A stretch of 64,000 bases of DNA from Sulfuriroseicoccus oceanibius (lineage in GTDB: Bacteria; Verrucomicrobiota; Verrucomicrobiia; Verrucomicrobiales; SLCJ01), in NCBI RefSeq assembly GCF_010681825.2, contig NZ_CP066776.1:1054001-1118000 (forward strand), read 5' to 3'. Positions 43,279-59,156 of the stretch are shown here, one piece after another; the first letter of the stretch is position 1, and each line of letters begins with the position of its first letter. The position numbers and the translations under genes were made by a program. The notes under the pieces were generated by a model. It was not told where the DNA came from. It made no database searches and worked only from the letters and a program-made list of their open reading frames with translations.

Positions 43279-43328
43279 TCGCCTGACGGGCGGCGCGTGA
43301 TGCGTTGCCTGTCAGGCGATTTTTTTTT
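43279..43328 (+). terminator. Rho-independent terminator after tex
   Basis: TCGCCTGAC / GTCAGGCGA stem (43279-43287, 43311-43319) followed by nine T residues. Confidence 0.9.
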
Positions 43329-43346: not shown

Positions 43347-43823
43347 TTATTGCTCCAGCACCGGCTCGTGTTTGCTTTGGACTTCCTTGGCGCCGTGTTC
43401 AATGAACTTTGTGACGATGTGGGCGTGGTTCTGGGCGACCTTTACGGCCTCAGGCGACTCGCCTGTGATGGTGACGCGGATGCCGTTTTCGAGAGGTTCG
43501 ACTTCGGTGGTGAGTTGAGCGAAATAGCGCCCCATTTCGCGGTAGGCGGGATCCCATTGACGGACGCGTCCCCCGCCTTCCACCCGCTTGAGCATGTATT
43601 TGATGTGGCTCTGGAGGAGCTTGGCGACTTTCGGGTCGGTCGATGTCGTGGTGGCGGTGTAACCTTTCTCGGTGAGGGTGACCTCGCGGCTGATGGTGGT
43701 GTGATGCGCGGCGAGTTGGTGGATGGTATCGCGTTGTTCTTTGGGGAGCGGGCCACGGGTTGGGCCGGCGAGTAGAGGTGCGCAGGTGAGGGCGGTAGCC
43801 AGTAGGAAAGTGAGCGTTTTCAT
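43347..43823 (-). CDS. Small exported protein of unknown function
   Basis: A 158-residue protein with signal peptide (MKTLTFLLATALTCAPLLA). The mature part begins GPTRGPLPKEQRD and has two halves: EVTLTEKGYTATTTSTDPKVA with KLLQSHIKYMLKR, then NGIRVTITGESPEAV with KVAQNHAHIVTKFI. The paired 'SHIKYM' and 'NHAHIV' elements look like an internal duplication. The Lys/His-rich helices resemble proteins of unknown function in Verrucomicrobiota. ATG at 43823 chosen over a longer frame because of the signal peptide. Confidence 0.65.
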   Translation of the reverse strand: MKTLTFLLATALTCAPLLAGPTRGPLPKEQRDTIHQLAAHHTTISREVTLTEKGYTATTTSTDPKVAKLLQSHIKYMLKRVEGGGRVRQWDPAYREMGRYFAQLTTEVEPLENGIRVTITGESPEAVKVAQNHAHIVTKFIEHGAKEVQSKHEPVLEQ

Positions 43824-43933: not shown

Positions 43934-45862
43934 ATGAATCAGGCTTTGTCGGTGCCTGATGCGCCGCGCTCATTCCCTGTTACTATGTCTTCCTCTAGTT
44001 CATCTGATCCTTGCCGTACTCTGTTAGTGGATGGTGATTTCGATTCACCGGCCAAGTTCAGCAAAGTGATGGCTGACGTTGGGTTTGATGTGGATCGTTG
44101 TGGCATGCCGGCGGACGGAGTGGCGGCTTTTGATCGTCACGAGTTGGTTGTGTTGATGATCAAGGAGGAGTCGGTGGCGCGCTCGGCACAGCATTTCATG
44201 ACCTGGTTGCGCAACCATGAGGACACGGAGCGCGAGCCGATGGTGGTAGCCGTGGGCGCCAAGGAGGTGATCCGGCCATTTGCGAAGTTGGGGGCGCGTG
44301 TTCTTGATGCGGATTTGGATCCATCGGTGATTCGGATCCAGCTTGAGGGGATTCGGGAGGCTGTGCAGTCGTCTCGTGGCGGATCTCGGCGTGGTGGGTT
44401 TTGGTCGCGCTGGTTTTCCAAGTCGGAGGAGCCGGCTCCTCTGGCCGAGGCCGAAGAAGAGAGCGAGAAAGAAAGAGAGGTGGCTAGTCTGCGACCAAGC
44501 AAGGCTGGGAGTGCCAAGTCTGCGGCCAAACTGCCTGACCTGAAGCGGGCGTCCGAGGCTGTGGCGAAGTCTGGTGAACCGGAGCGCAAGGTTTCGAAGA
44601 CGGAGGGTGCGGCCAATGAGGCGGTCAAACCCGTGGATGCCAAAGTGACGAGTCCGGCTGAGAGACCAGCGGCACCAACGGTTGCCAAACCGCTCGCCAA
44701 ACCTGGGGCTCCGGTTTTTAACAAACCTCTGGTTGCGGGCGAAGATGCAGTTGCGGAGAAGTCTGCGGAGCCGGTTGCGACGAAAGGCGATGAGGGGGCG
44801 GCGAAGGCTGCTGAAAAGCCAGCCAAGGTGAACGGTGATCCATTCCTTGAGCAGTTGGCAAAAGCGGATCGCCAAATGCACCAGACGGCTGCCCCAGTGA
44901 AGCCGGAAGGTAAGGGCGTTGCTGTTGATAAGTCTGGTGCGACGGAGAAGGGTGCGACGGAAAAGAAGTCGGTGGCAGCTGATGCGAAGAACAAAGCACA
45001 GGCGCCGGCAAAGCCAGCAGGAGCGAAGTCTCCTCCGGTCATCAAGGGGAGCTCGATTATGGGTAGCCGCACCGCGGCTAAAGAGGCGAAGAAAGATGTT
45101 AATCTTTCCAAGGCCAGCGCCGCTCCGGCTAAGGGAAAGACCTCGCGTTTGGGGGAGCTTGAGATGGCTCTGGACTCTGAAATTGTCGCGCGCAAGAAGG
45201 CGGAAGATCGCGCCAAGGGACTGGAGCAGCAGTTGGAGCGCAAGACCAAGGAGCTGGTCGGTTTGGTCGATTCGCTTTCTACCGTCGCCGTTGCGGGTTC
45301 GCCAATGGCACCTCCGCCGAAGCCGGGAGACTCCGCTGAGGTCGCGAAGCATTCCAGTTATCCAATGCCGGTCGATGCGTTGTTGGAGGATGTGCTGAAA
45401 TCCACCGTGGATGGTGATGGGAGCCTTGATTTGTCTGCTTTGCTCGAGCGTCAGCTTGAGCGCTACCTGAAGACTTGCCCGGAGGCTGCGCGCAGTGCGG
45501 TCGAGTTTGATCTGCCGGATGAGCCTATGCTCGTCGACGTGCGTGCGGGCTTCCCGTTGCTCGAGGTGATGAGCGAGTGCTTGGCGAATGCTGCGGAGCA
45601 CGGCCTGAAGATGGGTGAGAAGGAAGGTGTCGTGCGCGTTCAGTTCACGGTCTTGCCCGATGAGGGGATCGTGGAGATTTGCGACACCGGTGAAGCGCTG
45701 CCGAAGGGGTTTGACCTGGACAAAGTGAAGCACGGTGGCTTGTCCCGCGTGAAAGCGCTGGTTGCGGGGATGGGCGGAAAGATCACGATGAGCGCCAATT
45801 CCGAGACCCGTTGCCAAATCAACCTGCCAGGCTCGACACTTCGCCGACCGAAGCGAGGATGA
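43934..45862 (+). CDS. Receiver-like domain, long Ala/Lys/Pro linker, and histidine-kinase-type ATPase
   Basis: A 642-residue protein (start uncertain; ATG at 43985 gives 625). Three parts. A receiver-like domain (about 20-140): CRTLLVDGDFDSPAKF, then LVVLMIKEESVARS where the phospho-Asp would be expected; the usual DxxMP is not seen, so it may be a pseudo-receiver. A 300-residue Ala/Lys/Pro/Glu-rich linker follows (about 170-430), of low complexity. Last come a coiled coil (GELEMALDSEIVARKKAEDR) and an HATPase_c domain: ECLANAAEHGLKMGE (N box), ICDTGEALPKGF (G1), and a late G2-like GLSRVKALVAGMGG. No dimerisation His box is evident. It overlaps the next gene by ATGA, so the two are coupled. 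Confidence 0.68.
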   Translation: MNQALSVPDAPRSFPVTMSSSSSSDPCRTLLVDGDFDSPAKFSKVMADVGFDVDRCGMPADGVAAFDRHELVVLMIKEESVARSAQHFMTWLRNHEDTEREPMVVAVGAKEVIRPFAKLGARVLDADLDPSVIRIQLEGIREAVQSSRGGSRRGGFWSRWFSKSEEPAPLAEAEEESEKEREVASLRPSKAGSAKSAAKLPDLKRASEAVAKSGEPERKVSKTEGAANEAVKPVDAKVTSPAERPAAPTVAKPLAKPGAPVFNKPLVAGEDAVAEKSAEPVATKGDEGAAKAAEKPAKVNGDPFLEQLAKADRQMHQTAAPVKPEGKGVAVDKSGATEKGATEKKSVAADAKNKAQAPAKPAGAKSPPVIKGSSIMGSRTAAKEAKKDVNLSKASAAPAKGKTSRLGELEMALDSEIVARKKAEDRAKGLEQQLERKTKELVGLVDSLSTVAVAGSPMAPPPKPGDSAEVAKHSSYPMPVDALLEDVLKSTVDGDGSLDLSALLERQLERYLKTCPEAARSAVEFDLPDEPMLVDVRAGFPLLEVMSECLANAAEHGLKMGEKEGVVRVQFTVLPDEGIVEICDTGEALPKGFDLDKVKHGGLSRVKALVAGMGGKITMSANSETRCQINLPGSTLRRPKRG

Positions 45863-46611
45863 TTGCGTCGGTTCTTGGCTGGGCGTCGTTTTTGCTCGCT
45901 CTGGGGCTGGCGCTGTGGGTTGTGTGGATCCACCGGCGCGGGCGTCAGGATCCGTGGCTGCGCGTGGTCAATTGTCCCGTCCGACGTACGCTGGCTCCTG
46001 CCACCCCTGATACGGAGTGGCGAGCGGTGGTGGGCTCTGCGCTGACCGCAGGGATGCGCGTCGATGCGATCGAATGGAGTCTTGCGCATGATCAGGGAGC
46101 TGAGGTGCGGGTGGCCGATGGTTTCGATGCTCCGGATGGTTGGCGGACGATTCGCCACGATGAGGGACAAGCGCTGCGGGTGACTATGCCCGGCGACGGC
46201 TGGGCCGATGCGCTCGAGCGAGTGGGCGGTGCCGTCGGGCTGCGGAACGATTCGCCAGTCGCGGATTGGATCGAGTGGTCGGCCGCTGCACTGCCGTCTG
46301 GCAATGATCTGATGTGGGAACGTGCGCGGCTTGTGCTGCGCGCGCCACAGGTCACCATCGAGGTGCCATTGCGAGAGGCTTGGGCCGGGCCGGTGTCCGG
46401 TCAGTGGCGAGAGCGGGTGCGTGACATGGATGCCACCGGACTATTGGTCGCGTTGGCATTGCTTGGCTCGGTCGGCTTGGTGGTGACGGGTTCGCTGGTG
46501 GCGATGGCGGCGGGTGTGATTGGTCTGGTCGCGCTCTCCGGGGCGTGCAAGTTTGTCTTCATGTCGCGTCGGTCGGACCCTACGCGTGAGCAATTTTTGC
46601 AGAACTATTAA
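45859..46611 (+). CDS. Membrane protein coupled to the receiver/ATPase gene
   Basis: A 250-residue protein with an N-terminal helix (about 5-22, LGWASFLLALGLALWVVW), a soluble middle region of about 170 residues and two C-terminal helices (LLVALALLGSVGLVV; GVIGLVALSGACKFVF). ATG overlaps the upstream stop (ATGA), so translation is coupled and the product probably works with the ATPase. No family recognised. The middle has DGFDAPDGWRTIRHDEG and WIEWSAAALPSGNDL. Confidence 0.6.
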   Translation: MIASVLGWASFLLALGLALWVVWIHRRGRQDPWLRVVNCPVRRTLAPATPDTEWRAVVGSALTAGMRVDAIEWSLAHDQGAEVRVADGFDAPDGWRTIRHDEGQALRVTMPGDGWADALERVGGAVGLRNDSPVADWIEWSAAALPSGNDLMWERARLVLRAPQVTIEVPLREAWAGPVSGQWRERVRDMDATGLLVALALLGSVGLVVTGSLVAMAAGVIGLVALSGACKFVFMSRRSDPTREQFLQNY

Positions 46612-46626
46612 CCCGCCAGTGATCTG

Positions 46627-47286
46627 ATGGCCGACACCGTTCCTCTTCAATTTTCCCGCCTCTCCGATGACGAGATGCGTTCCCGTGCCAGTGAGTTTTC
46701 AGACCATCTGCGTCAGCGCCGAACGGTTCGTGACTTTTCGGCGGATCCGATTCCAGACGGGGTGCTTGATGCGTGCTTGTTGGCAGCAGGCAGCGCGCCA
46801 AATGGAGCCAACTTACAACCGTGGCACTTCGCTGTGGTGCGGAGTCCGGATGTGAAGCGTCGCATCCGCGAGGCGGCCGAGGAAGAGGAGCGTGAGTTCT
46901 ACGGTGGCCGTGCACCTCAGGAGTGGCTCGATACGCTGGCGCATCTCGGAACCAATGCCGAGAAACCATTTTTGGAGACGGCCCCGGCATTGATCGCGGT
47001 TTTCCAGCAAAGCAAGACCACCGATGAGCAGGGGAGGGAGAGCAAGACCTATTACCCCAAGGAGTCTGTTGGTTTGGCGACAGGCTTTCTCATAGCCGCG
47101 CTCCACCAGGCTGGACTCGCAACGCTCACTCACACGCCCAGCCCGATGAACTTTCTCAACGAAATCCTCAAGCGTCCAGCTACAGAGAAGCCGTTCTTAC
47201 TCCTCGTTGTTGGCTATCCGGCGGAGAACTGCCGCGTGCCGGACATCAAGAAGAAGCCTCTCGATGAGATTCGTTCGGTGCATTGA
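46627..47286 (+). CDS. Nitroreductase-family flavoprotein, iodotyrosine-deiodinase-like
   Basis: A 219-residue FMN-dependent oxidoreductase. Typical start: RRTVRDFSADPIPDGVLDACLLAAGSAPNGANLQPWHFAVV (FMN-binding Arg and Asn/Gln). The later motif GLATLTHTPSPMNFLNEI with LLLVVGYPAE is characteristic of IYD/BluB-like members, which act on halogenated aromatics or flavin itself; bacterial members often reduce quinones or dehalogenate. Substrate unknown. Fifteen bases after the membrane protein gene, so probably cotranscribed. Confidence 0.85.
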   Translation: MADTVPLQFSRLSDDEMRSRASEFSDHLRQRRTVRDFSADPIPDGVLDACLLAAGSAPNGANLQPWHFAVVRSPDVKRRIREAAEEEEREFYGGRAPQEWLDTLAHLGTNAEKPFLETAPALIAVFQQSKTTDEQGRESKTYYPKESVGLATGFLIAALHQAGLATLTHTPSPMNFLNEILKRPATEKPFLLLVVGYPAENCRVPDIKKKPLDEIRSVH

Positions 47287-48131: not shown

Positions 48132-48899
48132 TCAATACTTGATGGTGGCTTCGTGATCCACGCTCGCTCCATTGGAGACTCGTGCGACATGGGTGACGCC
48201 CCAAGTCACCACGTTGCGAAGTTTTGCGCGGCTTCCTTTTGAGGTGAGCTTTACCAGCGAGGTGCCGTTTGTCGCGCGCACGTTGTGTAACTCTATTTCG
48301 AATGGTGTGCGTTGGTAGCGGCGCATTCCGTTGCCTCGCACGCCTCTGCCAAAGTCTTCTAAGACCAGGTTGCGGCCGATGAACGGTCCTTGGTGGTTCA
48401 TCTGGACGACCTTGTCTTCCGCATTGCGGGCACCTCCATGTTGCCACGTCACCCGCGGGCCTTTCACTGTTACAGCATCTTCTCCTACGTCCTCGAAAAC
48501 CACATTTTCGAGTGTGTTGTCGCCGTAGCAGTGGATCCCATCGGCGCCGGGGGCGGCAATGATGACATTGCTCACTGAAGCGCCGCTTGCTAGTTCGATC
48601 ACCGGACGTTGGTCTTCTCTTTGGCTGCCGTCGCCAAGGTCCATCGGGATGAGCCGTATCCCTTGGAAGTCCACGTGGCGGCCGCGATTGATGAATATCG
48701 TGTCGGTGACGACGACGTCGCGGGTGGCTTCGGGGACGTGTAGTGCAGCAGGGGGAGGGGCGTCGCCAGTGTGGTTGGAGAATCCACCACCGGTCGAGCT
48801 GATGTGGGCGAGGGCGTAGACTGCAGCCGCTCCCGCGACAACGGCGAGGGCGGTCCGGCGGGCTGTAAGTTTGCTGAATTGTTTGGGCGATGGAGGCAC
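48132..48899 (-). CDS. PL3-family pectate lyase-like protein, paralogue 1
   Basis: A 255-residue exported protein. N-terminal hydrophobic signal/anchor (ALAVVAGAAAVYALA), then a beta-helix domain with PL3 hallmarks: GDGSQREDQRPVIELASGASV, APGADGIHCYGDNTLENVVFEDVGEDAVTVKG and PFIGRNLVLEDFG. PL3 enzymes cleave polygalacturonate by beta-elimination using Ca2+. Catalytic Lys/Arg were not assigned. Start GTG at 48899. About 50% identical by eye to the next gene, with 75 bases between them. Confidence 0.82.
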   Translation of the reverse strand: MPPSPKQFSKLTARRTALAVVAGAAAVYALAHISSTGGGFSNHTGDAPPPAALHVPEATRDVVVTDTIFINRGRHVDFQGIRLIPMDLGDGSQREDQRPVIELASGASVSNVIIAAPGADGIHCYGDNTLENVVFEDVGEDAVTVKGPRVTWQHGGARNAEDKVVQMNHQGPFIGRNLVLEDFGRGVRGNGMRRYQRTPFEIELHNVRATNGTSLVKLTSKGSRAKLRNVVTWGVTHVARVSNGASVDHEATIKY

Positions 48900-48974
48900 C
48901 GTCTAAGGAGGCGGCTGAGGCTGCTGCGTCAAGTGAGAAGAGTCGCGCTCTCCATCTGATTGGCAGTCATCATC

Positions 48975-49781
48975 TCAGTACTTGTAGACCTCGCCCTGGT
49001 CGGATTTGGCACCGTTGGATTTGCTAACCAAGTTGCGGACGTCCCACGTGACGACGTCATCCAATTTTGCGCGGCTGCCTTTCGAGGTGATCTTGACCAA
49101 CGAGCCGCCGTTCACTGCGCGGACGTGGTAGAGCTCGATCTTGAAGGGTGTGTTGCGGTGCTTTTTCGCGCCGTTGCCGCGCACAGCTCTGCCGAAGTCT
49201 TCGAAGATCAGGTTGCGTCCGATGAATGGTCCTTTGTGGTTCATTTGGACGATCTTGTCTTCGGCTTTGCGGGCGCCGCCACCGTCCCAGATGACGGGGC
49301 CGCCTTTGATGGTGAGGGCGTCTTCTCCGACGTCTTCGAAGTAGACGTTCTTGAGCAGGTTGTCGCCGACGCAGTAGATCCCATCGGCGCCGGGTTTGCC
49401 GATGATGAGGTTGCTGACCGAAGCCCCGCGCAGCAAGGCAAGCACAGGGCGCTGGCCCTCGCGTTGGCTGCCGTCGCCGAGCCCTTTGGCGATCAGTCGT
49501 GCGCCTTCGAAGTCGCGGTGTTCGCCTTTGCCAATGATGATCGGCTTGGTGACGATGATGTCGCGGGTGGGTTTGGGGATGCTCAGTTTGACCGGATGTT
49601 CGCGCTTGGTGGACATCCGTGGGCCATCGTGTTCGTCGGCGGCCTCAATGGCCAGCGATCCGGAGATCAGAGTGAGCAATGCGGCGAGACTGAGATGGCG
49701 GAGGTTGATGGATGGGATGCGCAAGATTTTGGTCTGGTCTGAATTGGTAAAGTGAAACCTTTGGAATACGCACCATAACAC
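48975..49781 (-). CDS. PL3-family pectate lyase-like protein, paralogue 2
   Basis: A 268-residue exported protein closely related to the neighbour: GDGSQREGQRPVLALLRGASV, GKPGADGIYCVGDNLLKNVYFEDVGEDALTIKG, PFIGRNLIFEDFGRAVRGNG. A GTG at 49781 starts the frame, but TTG at 49724 gives a cleaner signal peptide (MRIPSINLRHLSLAALLTLI). A tandem duplication has produced the pair; they differ at the His/Tyr of the DGIxC motif. Function as for the first copy; substrate likely pectin or a related uronate polysaccharide. Confidence 0.8.
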   Translation of the reverse strand: MLWCVFQRFHFTNSDQTKILRIPSINLRHLSLAALLTLISGSLAIEAADEHDGPRMSTKREHPVKLSIPKPTRDIIVTKPIIIGKGEHRDFEGARLIAKGLGDGSQREGQRPVLALLRGASVSNLIIGKPGADGIYCVGDNLLKNVYFEDVGEDALTIKGGPVIWDGGGARKAEDKIVQMNHKGPFIGRNLIFEDFGRAVRGNGAKKHRNTPFKIELYHVRAVNGGSLVKITSKGSRAKLDDVVTWDVRNLVSKSNGAKSDQGEVYKY

Positions 49782-57080: not shown

Positions 57081-59156
57081 TCAATGGATTGGGACTTGCA
57101 GGGACACCGTGGTGCCTTGGCCTTCGGCGCTCTTCACGTCATAGGATGCCTTCAATCTGATGGCACGGTCGCGCATGTTGCGCAAGCCGTGGTGCTGGGA
57201 CACCGAGCGCGGCTGGCAGTCGTTGGCTGTGGGGGTGAAGCCTGATCCGTTGTCTGAGATGGTGATGCGGAGTGATTTTGCAACCCAGGAAATCTCGACT
57301 TTGATCACCGACGCGTTTGCGTGGGAGGATGCGTTGTGGAGCGCTTCGCGGAAGAACTGCAAGATGTCGCGTTTGGTTCCGACGCTGATGGTGCGCTTCG
57401 GCAGTTGGCTGAGCGAAGGGATCTGGAGTTCCAGCGTCTCGCTGGGGATGCGTCTCTGGGCGGTGTAGGAGAGCTTCTCGACGAGTTCAGTCAGGGTGTC
57501 GGTGTCTTTGTCGGTGAGCCAGAGGACGTCGCGTAAGCTTTGATGCATGTCGTGCGCTATGTCGTGGATTCGTTCCCCTCGTTCGCGGACCCTTGGCTCG
57601 GTCGCGTGCTTCTTCACATAGGTGGAGGCGAGGCTAATGGCGGCGACTTTGCTGCCCACGTCGTCGTGAAGGTCTGAGCTGATCTGCTTCCTGAGTTTCA
57701 GGTTCTGCCGCCTTTTGCTGAGCGCGAGGATGATAATGGTCGCGATAACAGCGATCGCGACCGCCGCGGACGTTATGCCCTTGATCCATGTGATGAAGTT
57801 CTGCCAACGGGTTTCGGTCGCTTCCAGCTGGGTTTGCAGGGTGCGTAATTCGGCGTCGATCTGTTTGGCCGTTGCCAGTTGCTGTAGCCAGTCGACGAGG
57901 TCGATCACTTGTCTGCCTTGTGCGTGGCCGTCTACCAGCAGCGCACCGGCTGATTCGAGCTGGTGCCCTCCAATTGAGAGGGTCACCGGGCGCTGGTTGC
58001 TGAGCGGAGCGTCTTGCTGGCTGACCACGATCTCGCCCATAGAAAATACCGCGGTCTCTTGGTGGATAGGGAAGTGGTTGCAGTGGATGCGCACAAAGCG
58101 GCCGAACGCATGGAGGCCGGGGATGTGGACGATGTTGTTGTCCGGGTTTTCGAAGAGGGATTGCTTGAGAACCGTGCTCGTTTCTCCGCGTTGCCCGTTT
58201 GGGAGGGAGCGGGCGATGTCGATTTTGATAGAGCCGGGGAACCCGTAGCCCGGGACTGCGATGGTCTCCGGGCTCTGTGCGGGGAGTAGGTCGATCCATC
58301 CGATGTGGGTGTTCCGCCCGAGGTCGATTTCGATGATGAGCGGGGCATCGGTCACGGAGGTGTCCATCGGGAGGACGAGATCGGGCGCGCATTCTGCCAA
58401 TTCGCCAAGCGGGAGACCCAGCACGCCGGATTCGTGGTTAATGTAATCCGTGCTCCAATAGGGTTTCGCCTCGAAACTGGATGATGCTTTTGCTGCGCTG
58501 ATCTTGCGGACCTCATTGCTGACGATCATGTGCGCGCGGGCGAGAGCGAAGAACTCCCGATCTCCTTCCTGCTGGCCTCGGTACACTTCCATCCGTGGCT
58601 GCTGAGAAGTAAACGATGGCGAATGGAAGTACACCGGGTGCAGACCGGGGTCGGGGAAATCTTGCTGGGTCCAGTCAGCGATGATTGTTTCTTTGTTTGC
58701 GGGGCCGGTGACGATCCGGAACCTTTTTGGGAAGCCGTAGCTCTTTTCTTCGCTCAGATTGCGGTGGTCATGAGCGGGGACCAGTACGAGGTCGAGCGGG
58801 CCATTGAGGAATGGGGTTTGGAATTCCATTACCCAGCGGGGCTTGCTGGGCAGGGGCTCTTCAGTTGGCAGGTATGAGCTGTGGTAGCCAAAAGAGCTGG
58901 CAAGTTGCGGGGTACGGAGGGGCTGCATCTTGTCCAGCTCTATGCGCAGGTCTGTGATGCGTGCGTTCAGATCGCGGATGTGGCCTGGGATCTTATAGAG
59001 CGGAAGGTGGTCGGGGCTGAGGTCGCTGGCGTAGGGCCTGTGTTCCAATGGGGATCGGGGATCTCCCACGCGTGCTTCCTCTTCGGGCTGGGTGCTCCCG
59101 TGGGTAATCGAAAGGGCGTAGCAGAGGGCGGCGATGGTTCTAGCGAGTGTGCGCAT
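57081..59156 (-). CDS. HisKA_3 sensor kinase with discoidin-like periplasmic sensor
   Basis: A 691-residue sensor. N-terminal signal/anchor (TIAALCYALSITHGS). A large periplasmic region contains an F5/8-type C (discoidin-like) fold around residues 225-400: DAPLIIEIDLGRNTHIGWIDLLP, VRIHCNHFPI and the closing GEIVV. One transmembrane helix follows near 455-475 (SAAVAIAVIATIIILAL). The HisKA_3 box QISSDLHDDVGSKVAAISLA has its phospho-His at about residue 498, then HATPase: REALHNASSHANAS (N box), ISDNGSGFTPTA (G1), HGLRNMRDRAIRL. It probably senses a carbohydrate ligand and phosphorylates the LuxR regulator 10 bases downstream. Confidence 0.88.
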   Translation of the reverse strand: MRTLARTIAALCYALSITHGSTQPEEEARVGDPRSPLEHRPYASDLSPDHLPLYKIPGHIRDLNARITDLRIELDKMQPLRTPQLASSFGYHSSYLPTEEPLPSKPRWVMEFQTPFLNGPLDLVLVPAHDHRNLSEEKSYGFPKRFRIVTGPANKETIIADWTQQDFPDPGLHPVYFHSPSFTSQQPRMEVYRGQQEGDREFFALARAHMIVSNEVRKISAAKASSSFEAKPYWSTDYINHESGVLGLPLGELAECAPDLVLPMDTSVTDAPLIIEIDLGRNTHIGWIDLLPAQSPETIAVPGYGFPGSIKIDIARSLPNGQRGETSTVLKQSLFENPDNNIVHIPGLHAFGRFVRIHCNHFPIHQETAVFSMGEIVVSQQDAPLSNQRPVTLSIGGHQLESAGALLVDGHAQGRQVIDLVDWLQQLATAKQIDAELRTLQTQLEATETRWQNFITWIKGITSAAVAIAVIATIIILALSKRRQNLKLRKQISSDLHDDVGSKVAAISLASTYVKKHATEPRVRERGERIHDIAHDMHQSLRDVLWLTDKDTDTLTELVEKLSYTAQRRIPSETLELQIPSLSQLPKRTISVGTKRDILQFFREALHNASSHANASVIKVEISWVAKSLRITISDNGSGFTPTANDCQPRSVSQHHGLRNMRDRAIRLKASYDVKSAEGQGTTVSLQVPIH

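Follow-up and report, generated by a model that had tools for sequence, protein, structure and literature searches.

DivL of the Alphaproteobacteria is a PAS-bearing pseudokinase with a tyrosine at the histidine site, which acts on the pathway of the hybrid kinase CckA and can do so without kinase activity, as described in one report (PMC4211667). ChrS, when made a pseudokinase, forms heterodimers with HrrS according to another (PMC9491836). Here, we describe two overlapping genes of Sulfuriroseicoccus oceanibius (order Verrucomicrobiales) within a stretch of 64,000 nucleotides (contig NZ_CP066776.1, positions 1,054,001 to 1,118,000 of the forward strand), which is called the window below and whose own numbering is used for coordinates. 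Gene 1 (43985..45862, + strand) encodes a pseudo-receiver/linker/HATPase protein of 625 amino acids (aa), and gene 2 (45859..46611, +) encodes a three-helix membrane protein of 250 aa. Gene 1 is probably a reduced, orphaned member of a Verrucomicrobiales kinase-like family that includes many pseudo-histidine kinases, and its partner hybrid kinase has probably been lost. The more interesting result lies beyond the window, in a kinase-like family that appears to have repeatedly lost its catalytic sites beside a hybrid kinase that keeps them.

Domains of the Gene 1 Protein

An earlier note on this DNA had described gene 1 as a receiver-like domain without a clear phospho-Asp, a disordered Ala/Lys/Pro-rich linker of about 300 residues, and a histidine-kinase-type ATPase without a His box. 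The N-terminal part (aa 9-135; 44009..44389, +) showed no Pfam match at E ≤ 1, including none to Response_reg. It can be aligned with the same part of its relatives, and the AlphaFold model built from a 25-row alignment has a (βα)5 fold with a predicted local distance difference test (pLDDT) score of 87.3. Receiver domains made up most of the 50 Foldseek matches listed for this model (best E 2.5e-5; 60 matches at E ≤ 0.001), and the phospho-Asp column is occupied by Met. Judging from the predicted fold and the missing phosphorylation site, this domain would be a pseudo-receiver (PsR/ALR), in agreement with the earlier description. A whole-length alignment of gene 1 was too loose in the linker and was not used for the model, and neither was a single alignment of the N- and C-terminal fragments on gene 1, which was misaligned.

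The receiver-fold domain is followed by the motif FWSRWFSKS (aa 139-147; 44399..44425, +), which reads FWSRLFGRS in the ortholog of G002, a genome of the same genus, and then by a low-complexity linker rich in Ala, Lys, Glu, and Pro (aa 148-395; 44426..45169, +). Residues 136-395 contain 21% Ala, 14% Lys, 10% Glu, and 9% Pro, with A/K/P/E/G/S/T/D/Q/R accounting for 82%, and hydrophobic residues account for 15% compared with 33% in the two flanking domains. While the composition claimed earlier was confirmed, the length was not: the linker proper has about 250-260 residues and gives way to a short coiled-coil-like stretch. Homology of this stretch (aa 396-475) to the coil of the G002 ortholog looked good by eye, but is not claimed at a blastp E of 7.4.

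The HATPase domain (aa 490-617; 45452..45835, +) keeps E531, N535, and H539 of the N box and D567 and G569 of the D box. HATPase_c was the only Pfam match of gene 1 above a cut-off (aa 525-615, E 1.2e-6, 29.3 bits vs. a curated cut-off of 26.4). No HisKA-class domain was found in gene 1 by Pfam or by a purpose-built HisKA_2 profile, which bears out the ATPase without a His box; no PAS domain was found in its protein by Pfam, and PADLOC gave no match for gene 1 or gene 2.

Relatives of Gene 1

The G002 ortholog has 881 aa and has both ends in common with gene 1 (30-31% identity in the receiver part, being 31% over 155 residues, and 37% over 151 residues in the HATPase part), with PAS domains between them. 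An inverted block near the locus, with galE (79%) and pectate-lyase genes (53-63%), is common to both genomes. In a tree of 40 receivers, the window and G002 sequences were sisters with support of 99/97, both standing on long branches and the deeper forks being unsure.

Pfam detected HisKA_2 in the relatives from G053, G107, G016, G018, G031, G008, G064, and G540, so that the HATPase domain of gene 1 appears to derive from the HisKA_2 kinase class. HisKA_2 is matched in the PAS-bearing proteins of G008 (E 7e-5) and G064 (E 3e-5), with other residues standing in place of the HxRxKN stretch that contains the His, and the HisKA_2 His is retained in G053, G107, G016, and G031. Judging from these sequence comparisons, gene 1 would be derived from a histidine kinase with its phospho-His site lost, and would descend from PAS-bearing HisKA_2 sensor kinases whose usual neighbor is a hybrid kinase. 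The window protein would then be the reduced end of a series, and the most reduced member seen; separate PAS gains in the relatives would be an alternative needing more events.

The Family and Its Hybrid-Kinase Neighbor

The family was surveyed in 239 genomes of the order with a receiver profile built from mostly Asp-less sequences, which gave matches at E ≤ 0.001 in 101 genomes. Forty-nine places reached E ≤ 5.6e-8 and 48 were taken in (G091:C709 was not); 40 of them, from 40 genomes, belong to the gene 1 class. The remaining eight (G565, G163:C240, G026:C19, G103:C45, G120:C211, G146:C17, G186:C18, and G561) were left out as another class of proteins, which are 657-717 aa long, keep the Asp, and are not matched by the HATPase profile. 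Weaker receiver matches, including those in the gene 2 genomes G090, G153, and G542, were taken as ordinary receivers.

A hybrid kinase, identified by profile, is the next gene downstream in 28 of the 40 family genes, or 28 of the 36 assessable ones, because four more are cut by contig ends. The eight without an adjacent hybrid kinase are the window, six f4 genomes, and G120. The architecture of the partner was examined by Pfam in eight genomes (G002, G008, G053, G011, G123, G046, G571, and G186) and by the hybrid-kinase profile in the others. All eight partners have PAS, HATPase_c, and a C-terminal receiver, together with a HisKA match that was mostly just under the cut-off; seven have a second receiver match, and the G011 partner has one receiver, at the C end. 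The His, N-box Asn, D-box Asp, and C-terminal receiver Asp were all retained in 28 of 28 full-length partners, of which 26 lie beside pseudo-receiver genes and two, those of G107 and G016, follow an upstream protein without a receiver; partner fragments cut by contig ends (G064 and G555) were left out of this residue count.

The upstream protein presents a different picture. Its phospho-Asp is missing in 36 of the 40 members and present in four. Among the 33 with a HATPase domain, the His is absent in 18, one place off (HQR) in three, and kept in 12; the letters of 12 of the 18 His-less members were inspected, and no His was found at the box position. The f4 members with a HATPase match (G031, G023, G027, G012, and G039) keep the His and have no Asn in the N-box column. 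G011, G183, and G030 (L091, L092, and L093) encode a pseudo-receiver and PAS with no HATPase, and the hybrid kinase is still the next gene, indicating that the upstream protein can be a pure sensor. On this residue-level evidence, decay appears to have affected the upstream protein in more than one way and to have spared the catalytic core of the adjoining kinase.

Several further observations were made on these loci. The f4 loci L095, L134, L135, L145, and L152 show the reverse kind of decay; four of them have no adjoining hybrid kinase, and L095 is cut by a contig end. The module, that is, a pseudo-receiver/PAS/HisKA_2 gene followed by an intact hybrid kinase, was noted at L096, L099, L139-L162, and other loci, and also at L097 and L098; it is present in many f3 genomes, and two f5 genomes examined have it without the receiver. 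In L096-L098, the module adjoins a gene that we take to be rlmH-like.

In the window, no hybrid kinase adjoins gene 1, the next genes being gene 2 and a nitroreductase gene. With the G002 partner as query, no partner ortholog was found in G000, the genome of the window (one contig, completeness 95.5): the best match there had 82 bits over residues 272-598, compared with 189 in G008 and 174 in G064, and the ortholog is read as absent on that ground.

Proposed History and Function of Gene 1

In the explanation that we favor, the ancestral gene would have encoded a pseudo-receiver, PAS sensors, HisKA_2, and HATPase, and would have stood directly before a complete hybrid kinase. Comparison with the relatives indicates that, in the window lineage, the PAS domains and the HisKA_2 dimerization/phosphotransfer domain were replaced by the disordered linker and that the hybrid kinase was lost, the order of the losses being one that we infer. 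The resulting protein would be able neither to autophosphorylate on His nor to accept phosphate on its receiver. It would presumably bind ATP through the HATPase domain and may act by contacts of its two folded ends, with the linker holding them; its target would probably be some kinase or receiver that the cell still has. Gene 2 would stand apart from this, coding for a membrane protein with a domain that probably has a SOUL/GyrI fold and binds a ligand. Through the ATGA overlap described below, its translation would be tied to that of gene 1 in this lineage, and a shared function is not part of the proposal.

Several points speak against this explanation. The six f4 genomes and G120 have no adjoining partner, so that the family can do without one. 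The partner also shows changes of its own: the Asp of its N-terminal receiver is kept in 20 of 28, replaced by Asn in five, and unaligned in three. Because four of the 40 upstream proteins keep the phospho-Asp and 12 of the 33 keep the His, the term "pseudokinase" would not be true of the whole family. In gene 1 itself, the D box is without its second Gly and the G box is unusual. The joint loss of PAS, HisKA_2, and the partner is seen in one genome only, and the gene 1 protein may be in decay.

Gene 2 and Its Possible Coupling to Gene 1

Gene 2 begins inside the stop codon of gene 1, as first noted from the sequence, at an ATGA overlap (45859..45862, +), and this start agrees with the starts of its homologs. 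The helices at both ends noted earlier were also found: a single hydrophobic helix at the N terminus, then a soluble part, and finally a hairpin of two helices at the C terminus. The soluble domain (aa about 31-162; 45949..46344, +) has a probable SOUL/GyrI fold, and a conserved motif, LSGACKFVF...LQNY, lies at the C terminus (aa 226-250; 46534..46608, +). The protein is still without a family name: no Pfam family, including SOUL/GyrI, matched at E ≤ 1, the best NCBIfam match had an E of 0.31, and Pfam SOUL/GyrI was found in none of five relatives scanned.

Foldseek and VIA-align comparisons of the soluble part returned GyrI, BrlR, BmrR, and SOUL structures, with a best E of 6.7e-3 on a model with a pLDDT of 66. 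The VIA Z-scores were at most 6.9, with unrelated helical entries interspersed, and a Z under 8 may reflect a mere common arrangement. By hhalign, the gene 2 family profile aligned with SOUL at P 1.9e-5 to 2.3e-4 (probability 44-78%, 45-46 columns) and the GyrI profile aligned with gene 2 at P 0.0018-0.018, while the control profiles (HATPase, hybrid kinase, and receiver) gave P 0.11-0.52. Judging from the model and these alignments, the soluble part likely has a SOUL/GyrI fold. The window copy is without a part of the soluble region that is present in the relatives.

Relatives of gene 2 were found in 10 of the 239 Verrucomicrobiales genomes (two of these relatives being broken or split), in three of 387 in a phylum sample, and at 13 named loci, e.g., Roseibacillus. 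Split or stop-interrupted relatives were seen at L060 5290-6147, G570:C14, and G165:C10, and suggest that the family is dispensable in some genomes.

It had been proposed in the earlier note that the two genes may be an undescribed regulatory pair of an ATPase and a membrane partner, and that conservation of the gene neighborhood would be a check. The neighborhoods do not bear this out. Merging of repeats reduced 20 gene 2 loci to 14 distinct ones, and no open reading frame in their flanks of 0.5 to about 6 kb was matched at E ≤ 0.001 by the profiles for the receiver, HATPase, HisKA_2, and hybrid kinase. Conversely, nothing clear was found when the kinase loci were searched with the gene 2 profile (best E 0.045). 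Both genes are found together in only one of the 239 genomes, G000; G002 has the gene 1 ortholog and no gene 2 match. The usual neighbor of the gene 1 family is the hybrid kinase, not gene 2, and the gene 2 relatives in other genomes adjoin unrelated genes. Gene 2 belongs to a family separate from and unlinked to that of gene 1, and a conserved ATPase/membrane pair is not supported. A lineage-specific coupling of the two genes is possible, and the ATGA overlap may matter in this genome without conservation behind it.

Such a coupling could go further. Genes 1 and 2 might be a dedicated lineage-specific pair, in which the cytoplasmic SOUL/GyrI-like domain senses a ligand and signals to the ATP-binding partner, replacing the lost PAS domains and hybrid kinase. 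The ATGA is the sole 4-base overlap among the 12 close same-strand pairs of open reading frames in the window (in a crude gene set), the positive-inside rule, applied to the charges after the first transmembrane helix (HRRGR) and at the C end, places the soluble part on the cytoplasmic side, the modeled fold is probably ligand-binding, and gene 1 has lost its own sensors. However, 4-base gene overlaps are common in bacteria, kinase-type profiles matched at none of the 14 gene 2 loci, and, of the 10 gene 2 genomes, only that of the window is one of the 40 genomes carrying a member of the gene 1 family. We regard a dedicated pair as unlikely.

We hold it to be a little less likely still that a DivL/CckA-like module arose separately in Verrucomicrobiales, in which an upstream kinase-like protein, its catalytic parts having decayed repeatedly and differently, governs an intact hybrid kinase, and that the window pseudokinase, its sensors and kinase lost, was re-wired by translational coupling to a SOUL/GyrI-like membrane ligand sensor.

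Other Explanations for Gene 1

A similarly low probability is given to gene 1 being a functionless, decaying remnant whose linker is drifting low-complexity sequence. The sensors, dimerization domain, and partner are all gone, a long stretch is unalignable and of low complexity, and the GC content at third codon positions is 0.60 in the linker, lower than the 0.75 of the HATPase domain. Nevertheless, 625 codons are open, the folded ends are still 31-37% identical to those of G002, the N- and D-box residues are kept, and a downstream gene overlaps gene 1.

It is very improbable that gene 1 encodes a serine kinase/anti-sigma factor of the RsbW type joined to a receiver. Its N box has the form E..NA..HG and a weak match to RsbW models was found over it (E 0.0096), but the 15.4 bits of this match are far under the NCBIfam RsbW cut-off of 155, the ancestry of gene 1 appears to lie in HisKA_2 kinases, and no STAS or PP2C was found among the neighbors that the scan covered (tex, a small unnamed gene, the nitroreductase, two pectate lyases, and galE). 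Finally, we have hardly any doubt that gene 1 is not an ordinary hybrid histidine kinase with an overlooked His box or phospho-Asp, the case that the earlier note had named as its refutation: the HATPase_c match and the N and D boxes would fit one, but both canonical sites were looked for in gene 1 and neither was found, no HisKA-class domain being detected by either method and the phospho-Asp column being Met.

Surroundings in the Window

An alternative start of gene 1 at ATG 43934 is possible and would give 642 aa. ATG 43985 fits better, with the receiver domain 10 residues past the start in the window and 11-12 residues past it in G002, G008, G064, and G053. Upstream, the tex gene, named by Pfam, is followed by a terminator-like hairpin (43279..43319, +) of 19 pairs and then a T run. 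The scan found five terminator-like sites compared with 5.2 expected by shuffling, and this one has by far the most pairs. The hairpin suggests that gene 1 is not read through from tex. Because a small divergent gene with a probable start at 43823 also precedes it, gene 1 is probably first in its own transcript; no sigma-70-type promoter was found.

The nitroreductase gene (46627-47286) begins 15 bases 3' of gene 2. Two neighboring pectate-lyase-family genes (PF03211) are located at 48132-49781, and one is present at the G002 locus, a case of duplication or loss. A HisKA_3-class histidine kinase gene is located at 57081-59156, and a response-regulator gene may come next.

Comparison with Known Systems

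Gene 2 may resemble SOUL/GyrI-like proteins in its predicted fold, and its family profile can be aligned with SOUL, but only over 45-46 columns and at an hhalign probability of 44-78%; it differs from them in its three membrane helices and in having no Pfam SOUL/GyrI match. Among solved structures, the HATPase domain of gene 1 is nearest to the HisKA_2/HWE kinases, such as the blue-light histidine kinase and PhyK (4r39, E 3.8e-4), and its relatives carry HisKA_2, while the window protein has no such domain. FrzS and HP1043 are atypical receivers without the Asp. Both were among the Foldseek matches listed for the gene 1 receiver part, which shares with them a predicted receiver fold without a usable Asp; in the window, however, the domain does not belong to a response regulator but forms the N-terminal part of a kinase-like protein.

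According to a 2025 analysis (PMC12632262), 0.9% of HisKA domains are without the His and 2.0% of receiver domains are without the Asp. In contrast to those rates, a single family has here lost the Asp in 36 of 40 members and the His in at least 18 of 33, beside a partner whose catalytic residues are kept in 28 of 28, although the family members are related and these losses are not independent events. The members form a series well suited to the question of what remains for a kinase-like protein to do after catalysis is gone, and the window gene, with two folded ends and a linker, is the extreme of this series. Among the literature matches listed, none described this Verrucomicrobiales module in its title or in the opening of its abstract.

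The closest likeness is to DivL and CckA, in that the Verrucomicrobiales relatives also combine an intact hybrid kinase with a neighboring kinase-like protein that bears PAS domains and often has no phospho-His. The partner is not CckA itself, since the G053 hybrid kinase, the only one scanned with NCBIfam, had CckA as its best model at 235 bits vs. a cut-off of 1000. A pseudo-receiver and a core of the HisKA_2 type set the Verrucomicrobiales protein apart from DivL, and the window copy has neither PAS domains nor a partner. By analogy of architecture and neighborhood, the family may work like DivL, and the window protein would do so only in part, because its PAS domains and its partner are gone.

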